A DNA stretch of 64,000 nt from Halothiobacillus sp. (GTDB lineage: Bacteria > Pseudomonadota > Gammaproteobacteria > Halothiobacillales > Halothiobacillaceae), in assembly GCA_016278265.1 (NCBI GenBank), contig JADQCE010000001.1, positions 744,001-808,000 on the forward strand. Direction: 5' to 3'. The translations under genes were made by a program, and so were the position numbers. Shown here piece by piece: positions 61,481-64,000 of this stretch. Numbering within the stretch: the first letter of the stretch is position 1; every line of letters begins with the position of its first letter. The notes under the pieces were generated by a model. The model worked only from the letters and a program-made list of their open reading frames with translations. It did not search any database and had not been told where the DNA came from.

Positions 61481-62257
61481 CTAGTTCGATTTGATGCGAT
61501 GCAGGATGAGTTTCGGTAGCCGCGGCAGCCAGCCCGCGAGCAGCCGCAGGTGCATCCAGATCAGCAACCGGTTGTCCCGCCCGTAGCGAAAGTGCGACAC
61601 GCCGTCGTCCCCGGCCGCGAAGTATTGCACCGGCGCGTCGACATTCACCGGGATGAGCCCACGCCAGACCAGGCGCACGGCGGCCTCGGGATCGAAATCA
61701 AAGCGTCGCATCCAGCGTGTGCCTTCCATCACCGCGATCAGGTCATCGATCGGGTAGACGCGCATGCCGAACAGCGAGTCTCCGATGCCCGCCCAGGCCG
61801 TTTCCAGATTGGCCCAGAAATTCGAGACCTTGCGTCCGTGGACCCGCAGTGCCGGGGCATCGGCCGAGAACACCGGCCGGCCGAGGATCAGGGCATTGGG
61901 GTGTTCCCGAGCGCACTCGATGAAGGCGGGGATCCGTTCCGACGGGTGCTGACCATCGGCGTCCAGGGTCAGGGCGTGGGTGAAGCCAGCTCGGCGCGCC
62001 GCCTGGATGCCGGTAAGGATCGCCGCCCCCTTGCCCCGGTTTGTTTCATGGTGGAGCACCTGCACCCGCTCGTATTCCGTGGCCAATTGGGCCAGTCGCT
62101 CGCGGGTTGCCGGTTCGCTGCCATCATCGACCACCCAGACCGGGAGTCCATCTCCGTGCGCCAAGGCATCACGCACGGTGGTTTCGATCCGTGGGCCAGG
62201 GTCGTAACACGGGATCAGGATCAGAGGTCGCAGGGAAGGGGTGGCGGATTCGTTCAT
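61481..62257 (-). CDS. glycosyltransferase family 2
   Basis: A 258-residue GT-A enzyme using a nucleotide sugar. VWVVDDGSEPATRERL, TNRGKGAAILTGIQAARR and LTLDADGQHPSERIPAF (with the DxD-type metal motif) are clear. The C-terminal region ends KLILHRIKSN and has no membrane helix. It overlaps the acyltransferase gene by 4 nt. In aryl-polyene clusters a GT2 gene accompanies an acyltransferase; the acceptor here is unknown. Confidence 0.88.
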   Translation of the reverse strand: MNESATPSLRPLILIPCYDPGPRIETTVRDALAHGDGLPVWVVDDGSEPATRERLAQLATEYERVQVLHHETNRGKGAAILTGIQAARRAGFTHALTLDADGQHPSERIPAFIECAREHPNALILGRPVFSADAPALRVHGRKVSNFWANLETAWAGIGDSLFGMRVYPIDDLIAVMEGTRWMRRFDFDPEAAVRLVWRGLIPVNVDAPVQYFAAGDDGVSHFRYGRDNRLLIWMHLRLLAGWLPRLPKLILHRIKSN

Positions 62258-63018
62258 GGCGTACCGAGTTGTCGTTCGAAGCAATGCTGCCAGTCAAGGG
62301 CCGCCTGATGGGGGCTGTGATCCCGCGTTTCGTCTGGCAGGTTCGTGAGGGTGTCAACGTGCAAGTGGACGGGGAGTCGCGGCAGTTGCCACACCGGGAG
62401 CGCCTTGGTTAGCAAGGGGCGATCGTAACGGAACACGAACGCGTGCAGCGGGACATGGGCTCGGCGGGCGAGCATGAACGGCGCCGGCTGAAACGGGCCG
62501 GTCGCTTTGTCGGCACCGGTCGGACTGCGCGATCCCTCGGGGAACAGCAGTACGTGACAGCCGTTGCGGATGGCCTCGCGCGCACCGAGCATCATCTCGA
62601 CCGGGCGGTCGTTGGGCAGGTAACCGGCCAGTCGAGCGGGCAGGGCGAACAACGGATTGCGCAACAGCCCGGCGCGCATCACACAGACGACATTGGGGGC
62701 ATGCGAGAGGACGATCAGGGCATCGAGCAACGAGGGGTGGTTGGCCACGATCACCCCGGCGGGGGCCTCCCGCAGCGTGTCGAGCGCGCGGCTATCGACG
62801 CGCAAGACGCCAATCAGTGTGAGCCACACCCGGTAAGCGTGCATGGCGTGGTGGATCAACCGGCGCGCCGCCGCTCTCCGAGCGGGCCGCGGAAGGAAGA
62901 CGATGACCAGCGCGATCGGCAGCCAACCGATCAGCAGCAGTGCCAGTCCGCCGTGTCCCAACGGCCCGGCGAGGGTCCGATGCACCGCGCGCAACAAGCC
63001 TCTCAGTCGCGTGTTCAC
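62254..63018 (-). CDS. PlsC-type acyltransferase
   Basis: A 254-residue lysophospholipid/LPLAT acyltransferase. The HX4D motif is NHPSLLD; the later motif is LLFPEGSRSPTG. An N-terminal hydrophobic stretch (LALLLIGWLPIALVIVFL) anchors it. The start is a GTG overlapping the upstream gene (GTGA), and the end overlaps the glycosyltransferase (ATGA). It probably acylates a lipid carrier or polyene product rather than a phospholipid, but this is by context. Confidence 0.85.
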   Translation of the reverse strand: MNTRLRGLLRAVHRTLAGPLGHGGLALLLIGWLPIALVIVFLPRPARRAAARRLIHHAMHAYRVWLTLIGVLRVDSRALDTLREAPAGVIVANHPSLLDALIVLSHAPNVVCVMRAGLLRNPLFALPARLAGYLPNDRPVEMMLGAREAIRNGCHVLLFPEGSRSPTGADKATGPFQPAPFMLARRAHVPLHAFVFRYDRPLLTKALPVWQLPRLPVHLHVDTLTNLPDETRDHSPHQAALDWQHCFERQLGTP

Positions 63019-64000
63019 AGTTCCGGCCAGGTGTCCCGGGTTGCCTCGGCCCCGTGCCGCGACTGGCGCAGGGTCGCCTCGATTTCCACCAACAGATCCT
63101 CGCGGCAGATATCGGCCTGCAGATAGACCCGTCTCGCGCGCCTATCGATCAAATCGTCGATCTGTTCACGAACGAGCAGCAGGTGCTCGGGATGGCGCAG
63201 GTAGATCCGCAGCAGGCTCGCCTCATCCCAGGCAAATCGGGGCTCACTTGTTTGCCGTTTGCCGTTGGCCTCTTGTAGCACGGCCTCGAGGTTCGCAATT
63301 GTCTCCCGGGTCTGCGTGACCACGTCACCGTGGTGACGGGTCTCGTGGCCGACGATCGAGGCGGTACCCGAGATGAACAACCAGTCATGCCGTTTGCCCC
63401 GGGCCAGCGCCGCTCGCGCGAACAGTGGGCTTTTCGGGCCGTAGCGTTCGGGGTAATCCCAGGCACTGATCTGGCGCGGGTTCTCGATCCGCTCGGCCGG
63501 GGTGTCGGCGGCGAGGTAGATCACGCGACCGGCAGTGCCGCTGGGGCTGCCCAGCGCACAGGCGGCCGGTGCGGACCGGGCGGGTCCCTGTTTGGCCCAT
63601 TCGAAGGCGTTTGCCCGGCCCTGGTTGAACAGGCGATAGCGCTCGAGGCCGGTGGTCGTGTCGATGGCGTTGATCGCGGGGATGTAGTGCCAGACCCGCC
63701 ACAGGTGGGGCGTTTTCTCGCCGTGCAGGCGGGCGAACAGTTGTCGGTAGGCGGTCTCGGTCCCCTGGGTGAGCCCGTCAGTTTCATCCAGTGGGATGCT
63801 GCCGAACAGCCAGCCTTCGGCGCGTGCCAGGCATTCGTCGGCGTGGTGTCGGGTGGTGACCGTCCCCGGGGCAAGGAATCCCTCCAGGAGGTCCTCGAGA
63901 TTGCCGTCAAGCACGGCCAGCGGCAAGGTCCCGAGGCATCCCCTTAACTCCTCCGGATGGCTGCCCGGCGTGCCAAGCGCCCCCAATCGTCGCTCGGGGG
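63015..64000 (-). CDS. chorismatase/XanB2-like protein, N-terminus beyond the window
   Basis: At least 328 residues in an open frame to the right edge. Features: WLFGSIPLDETD, YIPAINAIDTTTGLERYRLFNQGRANAFEWA, GSPSGTAGRVIYLAADTPAERIENPRQISAWDYPERYGPKSPLFARA (parts only) and ISGTASIVGHETRHHGDVVTQTRETIANL. These are the hallmarks of the FkbO/Hyg5/XanB2 family, which splits chorismate to give 3-hydroxy- or 4-hydroxybenzoate-type starters. XanB2 is the first enzyme for xanthomonadin/aryl-polyene. No in-frame stop occurs before the edge; a TTG at 63986 is not a convincing start. Which chorismatase subtype cannot be decided. Confidence 0.82.
   Translation of the reverse strand, partial: PERRLGALGTPGSHPEELRGCLGTLPLAVLDGNLEDLLEGFLAPGTVTTRHHADECLARAEGWLFGSIPLDETDGLTQGTETAYRQLFARLHGEKTPHLWRVWHYIPAINAIDTTTGLERYRLFNQGRANAFEWAKQGPARSAPAACALGSPSGTAGRVIYLAADTPAERIENPRQISAWDYPERYGPKSPLFARAALARGKRHDWLFISGTASIVGHETRHHGDVVTQTRETIANLEAVLQEANGKRQTSEPRFAWDEASLLRIYLRHPEHLLLVREQIDDLIDRRARRVYLQADICREDLLVEIEATLRQSRHGAEATRDTWPEL

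Follow-up and report, generated by a model that had tools for sequence, protein, structure and literature searches.

A probable halogenated aryl polyene gene cluster in Guyparkeria and related loci in other halophilic sulfur oxidizers

The window, the whole 64,000-nucleotide stretch of DNA that was analysed, corresponds to positions 744001–808000 of contig C10 in a genome of 2.73 Mb. Three adjoining genes lie at its right edge (window coordinates):

61481–62257, minus strand: GT2 glycosyltransferase, dolichyl-phosphate-mannose-synthase-like (ATG at 62257; PF00535, E=6.5e-23)
62254–63018, minus strand: PlsC-type acyltransferase (GTG start; PF01553, E=1.1e-13)
63015–64000 and past the window end, minus strand: chorismatase, XanB2/ArcB/Hyg5-like (PF21168 N-domain, E=3e-29; TIGR04444, E=2.3e-61)

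As described in the initial annotation, the three genes run in one direction and overlap by 4 nt each, at 62254–62257 (GT2/PlsC) and 63015–63018 (PlsC/chorismatase); all three open reading frames are on the minus strand. The likely start of the chorismatase is an ATG at 64037, 37 nt beyond the window end, and the acyltransferase carries its HxxxxD motif as HPSLLD. GT2 is the last gene of a unit running from a halogenase through the chorismatase and acyltransferase to the glycosyltransferase. Chance occurrence of the three genes was rejected; the family matches are far beyond chance. The left neighbors, ilvD and a gene for an FMN-binding protein, are ordinary and lie on the opposite strand, which places the cluster edge at about 61480.

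The remaining cluster genes occupy C10 808040–823120, equivalent to window positions 64040–79120 (C10 coordinate minus 744000), and are followed by a tRNA gene (C10 coordinates):

808040–809497, minus strand: flavin halogenase
810009–810764, plus strand: PAP2
810761–811993, plus strand: ketosynthase (KS), CSSS active site at 175
811990–812796, plus strand: chain length factor (CLF)-like half-length KS, adjoining the KS gene
812810–813553, plus strand: ketoreductase (KR; PF13561)
813585–814307, plus strand: polysaccharide deacetylase
814332–814781, minus strand: presumed dehydratase, named by conserved position only
814793–817219, minus strand: MMPL exporter (PF03176)
817216–817833, minus strand: LolA-like carrier (PF19574)
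817836–818831, minus strand: LpxL-type acyltransferase (PF03279)
818828–819178, minus strand: ApeI-like dehydratase (weak sub-cut-off ApeI/FabA match, E=2.7e-4)
819178–820626, minus strand: AMP ligase (PF00501)
820623–821321, minus strand: membrane protein, presumably COG4648/ApeG-like, named by position (nothing above cut-off in Pfam)
821288–821569, minus strand: acyl carrier protein (ACP; PF00550)
821620–822885, minus strand: FabF-like second KS (CASA, HGTAT, GHAMG)
about 822878–823114, minus strand: second ACP (PF00550)
823251–823341: tRNA-Ser(tga), followed by pal, the right flank of the cluster

The initial annotation had proposed that the window stops at the edge of an aryl polyene cluster whose polyketide- or fatty-acid-like genes would lie to the right. 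Such genes are present in the next 20 kb: three KS-family proteins, a ketoreductase, dehydratase-like proteins and two ACPs lie within 15 kb, together with the predicted AMP ligase, the halogenase and a LolA/MMPL export system. The partner genes are on the expected side but do not make up a single upstream operon. Instead, there are three transcription units, from halogenase to GT2 (minus strand), from PAP2 to deacetylase (plus strand) and from second ACP to presumed dehydratase (minus strand). Both ACPs have the DS(I/F) motif and the acyltransferases have HxxxxD. The LolA-like protein also matches NF053544, flexirubin LolA2, with a score below cut-off, and we take the second KS to be ApeR-like. 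The presumed dehydratase had no match in Pfam, NCBIfam or the PDB, and no regulator was seen in the cluster. The rings of arcuflavin and xanthomonadin are usually O-methylated; no methyltransferase was found within the cluster.

In two PDB entries, the KS matches one chain and the CLF-like protein the other. The KS best matches are 7f28 chain B (E=3.2e-76) and 6qsp chain A (E=7.4e-69), and those of the CLF are 7f28 chain A (E=3.6e-7) and 6qsp chain B (E=1.7e-7). These entries, labelled by the search tool only as ketoacyl synthases or uncharacterized, are presumably aryl polyene KS:CLF complexes. A KS with CSSS next to a half-length CLF-like partner is the arrangement that we took to mark a xanthomonadin/arcuflavin-type system. 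As for the conserved CLF glutamine, Q166 in Lysobacter ORF16, no glutamine is shared by >90% of 21 CLFs aligned without the Lysobacter sequence.

The halogenase matches CndH (3e1t, E=3e-51), PltA (5dbj) and CmlS (3i3l) in the PDB. It keeps GGGPGGS, Lys109 and, at 264, the WxWxIP motif (WFWFIP); nine relatives show no change at the key motif residues. A flavin-dependent halogenase with WxWxIP and the catalytic lysine was the feature sought for a halogenated xanthomonadin. In a class sample of 370 genomes, a chorismatase occurs in 67 and a close halogenase in 33. Outside this order, 29 genomes of the sample carry the halogenase; it directly adjoins the chorismatase in 15 of them, and in one more the two are 5 kb apart. 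Many other chorismatases of the class sample stand alone. A chorismatase alone is therefore too little to support the cluster call made in the initial annotation, which is justified by the neighboring genes. Plasmid searches returned no close plasmid-borne copy of the cluster, only distant halogenases and chorismatases, the best at about 54%.

The TIGR04444 (FkbO/Hyg5) score of the chorismatase is below the TIGR cut-off, indicating a related subgroup, and its best PDB match is Hyg5 (5ag3, E=3.7e-40). Gly224 and Cys311 correspond to Gly240 and Cys327 of Hyg5, while FkbO (4bps) has alanine at both positions; glycine and cysteine at such positions are described as residues of the CH-Hyg5 subfamily (PMC7170507). 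The pair is common to all 24 relatives checked and therefore separates the enzyme from FkbO, rather than Hyg5 from XanB2. Judged by sequence, this is a 3-hydroxybenzoate-forming type, for which 3-hydroxybenzoate (3-HBA) alone and 3-HBA with 4-hydroxybenzoate (4-HBA) look the same. The hydroxybenzoate starter enzyme of the initial annotation is thereby retained and refined to this type. When chorismatases are compared, Guyparkeria sp. LH_M38 (94%) and Guyparkeria sp. SCN-R1 (89%) come out as the nearest named relatives, and we therefore treat the source genome as Guyparkeria, a halophilic sulfur-oxidizing genus. Among Guyparkeria species the chorismatase diverges faster than its neighbors, with 55–66% identity in G001–G003 compared to 80–86% for the adjacent halogenase and 75–92% for the KS.

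Gene order is conserved in Guyparkeria and partly in Halothiobacillus. Four Guyparkeria genomes (G001, G002, G003 and G005, which is SCN-R1) have the same gene order and orientation, and GT2 keeps its position at 71–90% identity in four genomes of the genus. Where the flanks were read, the Guyparkeria cluster lies between ilvD/FMN-binding and pal. A genome of a neighboring genus (G017) has the whole gene set with an insertion, and in G012, taken as Halothiobacillus neapolitanus, the cluster is split into two loci. A recent horizontally inserted island at tRNA-Ser is unsupported, since the GC content of the cluster (63–68%) is unremarkable and its place is the same throughout Guyparkeria. One genome of the genus, the 99% complete G004, is without the cluster. 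On contig C17 of G004, the tRNA-Ser(tga)–pal–nadB site is flanked by restriction-modification-like and phage-like (terminase-like) open reading frames.

Comparison to characterized systems indicates that this is a further xanthomonadin/arcuflavin-type aryl polyene cluster, a type that is itself already known. The closest parts list is that of arcuflavin from Azoarcus sp. BH72, in which the halogenase arcA adjoins the XanB2-type chorismatase arcB and the deacetylase is arcN (PMC3949708). Both systems have a halogenase beside a XanB2-type chorismatase, a glycosyltransferase, acyltransferase, KS, CLF-like partner, KR, dehydratases, AMP ligase, ACP, LolA, exporter and polysaccharide deacetylase. 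However, the Guyparkeria cluster is continuous where Azoarcus has two unlinked clusters, lacks visible MipA, Na/H antiporter, methyltransferase and two-component genes, and adds a FabF-like KS and another ACP. With the Xanthomonas xanthomonadin (pig) cluster and the Lysobacter yellow pigment, which has largely the same parts list (PMC3691225), it shares a 3-HBA-forming chorismatase, the CSSS KS with half-length CLF-like partner, GT2, LolA and, in Xanthomonas, the halogenase; it differs in gene order and in the second KS/ACP pair. The aryl polyene clusters of E. coli and Xenorhabdus (PMC8253772) likewise have a KS:CLF pair, second KS, two ACPs, COG4648-type membrane protein, acyltransferases and an RND-type exporter. 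Compared to these, Guyparkeria has the chorismatase and halogenase but no recognized ApeB-type methyltransferase or ApeK-type thioesterase.

Together, these findings make it very probable that the three edge genes form the left end of a complete cluster of ~17.6 kb (C10 805481 to about 823120) for a xanthomonadin/arcuflavin-type aryl polyene, probably halogenated and expected to be a yellow membrane pigment. Using homologues as a guide to each step, as well as to the ring substitution pattern, lipid anchor and pigment function, we infer the following pathway. The chorismatase would convert chorismate to 3-hydroxybenzoate and probably 4-hydroxybenzoate, which the AMP ligase would load onto an ACP. 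Iterative malonyl extension by KS/CLF, the ketoreductase and the two dehydratase-type proteins would give a fully conjugated polyene, and the flavin halogenase would halogenate the aryl ring. The LpxL-like and PlsC acyltransferases and GT2 may then couple the resulting polyene acid to a lipid or glycolipid of the membrane, with the MMPL exporter and LolA-like carrier transporting the product to the outer membrane, where the pigment could serve as an antioxidant or light screen. The open-access papers searched contained no data on pigments, transcripts or mutants of Guyparkeria.

The chorismatase could instead mainly supply 4-hydroxybenzoate for ubiquinone, its pigment neighborhood being secondary, a reading to which we give somewhat less than an even chance. 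Across 27 genomes of the order, none has both chorismatase and UbiC (PF04345): 16 carry just the chorismatase, 5 just UbiC, and 6 lack both. In addition, G018 has a chorismatase and no CLF, in G011 the two are far apart, and in the class a chorismatase commonly stands alone. However, UbiC status tracks genus boundaries and may therefore reflect a single evolutionary event, and the 99% complete G004 has neither gene. Moreover, the Guyparkeria chorismatase sits in a 4-nt-overlap unit with an acyltransferase and a glycosyltransferase behind the halogenase, a place kept across the genus. A dual role in pigment and ubiquinone synthesis, as described for XanB2 (PMC3949708), is a mild form of this alternative that is compatible with an aryl polyene cluster, and the mutual exclusion of UbiC and chorismatase fits such a role. 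Three genomes (G004, G013 and G015) have neither UbiC nor chorismatase, though they are at least 98% complete.

An arcuflavin/flexirubin-like product, with the polyene esterified to a dialkylresorcinol, is improbable as an alternative to a lipid-anchored xanthomonadin. Azoarcus makes such a hybrid with a very similar gene set (PMC3949708), but no dialkylresorcinol genes (darA/darB) were recognized among the open reading frames of the Guyparkeria cluster or of a further 20 kb to the right. We consider a decayed or silent remnant, as might be suspected from G004, with no cluster and restriction- and phage-like genes at its tRNA-Ser/pal/nadB site, most improbable, because every gene of the cluster has an intact reading frame, catalytic motifs are present, and conservation between species extends down to about 50–65% identity.

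Natronochrome and chloronatronochrome, aryl polyenes, offer a comparison for the halogenated aryl polyene favored here. Thioalkalivibrio sp. K90mix makes natronochrome, a membrane-bound yellow pigment whose genes, as of 2011, "remain to be identified" (PMC3368412); the names of both pigments are from Takaichi 2004, as cited in PMC3368412 and PMC5345834. A CLF is present in 15 of 30 Thioalkalivibrio genomes, K90mix (G397) included, where it belongs to the following feature:

C1 488,937–499,345, minus strand: related aryl polyene locus of K90mix, a compact set with no halogenase (KS at C1 491,686–492,870)

This natronochrome producer, a related halophilic sulfur oxidizer, thus has an aryl polyene cluster with a 12-gene core in the order ACP–COG4648–AMP ligase–dehydratase–acyltransferase (LpxL-type)–LolA–MMPL–KS–CLF–dehydratase–KR–GT2. 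Unlike in Guyparkeria, the Thioalkalivibrio unit showed neither a second KS/ACP nor PlsC, the chorismatases are elsewhere in the genome (G222, G373), and the halogenase occurs only in some genomes. G222 and G373 have two chorismatase genes each, one beside a UbiE-like methyltransferase gene and one beside mutM. Eight of the 15 cluster-bearing genomes have a halogenase (G222, G398, G399, G401, G403, G406, G412 and G420). Its motifs are intact, its distance from the CLF is about 9 kb in all eight, and in the four loci read it adjoins the ACP gene divergently. The K90mix plasmid pTK9001 (NC_013930), with whose sequence the second contig of G397 begins, carries annotated type IV CRISPR csf1–csf3 genes at 64224–66712.

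On this gene content, the K90mix cluster is a good candidate for the natronochrome genes, and presence or absence of the halogenase fits as a candidate switch between chloronatronochrome and natronochrome. We think it reasonably likely that, in halophilic and haloalkaliphilic sulfur oxidizers, xanthomonadin-type aryl polyene clusters underlie the yellow membrane pigments, giving natronochrome without the halogenase and chloronatronochrome with it, and that the Guyparkeria/Halothiobacillus product is an undescribed halogenated relative. Among the open-access papers searched, none was identified that connects aryl polyenes with Thioalkalivibrio or Guyparkeria.

These findings matter mainly for the genus in which the cluster occurs, for its intact halogenase and for the candidates they offer for the natronochrome genes. 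Halogenated aryl polyene pigments would be extended to chemolithoautotrophic halophilic sulfur oxidizers, in which they are unreported in the open-access literature searched, and natronochrome, for which the K90mix genome paper stated the genes as unidentified, would gain named candidates. A single halogenase gene, present or absent, directly predicts for each strain whether its pigment should be chlorinated. In the ubiquinone synthesis of this order, UbiC may also have given way to the XanB2-type enzyme.
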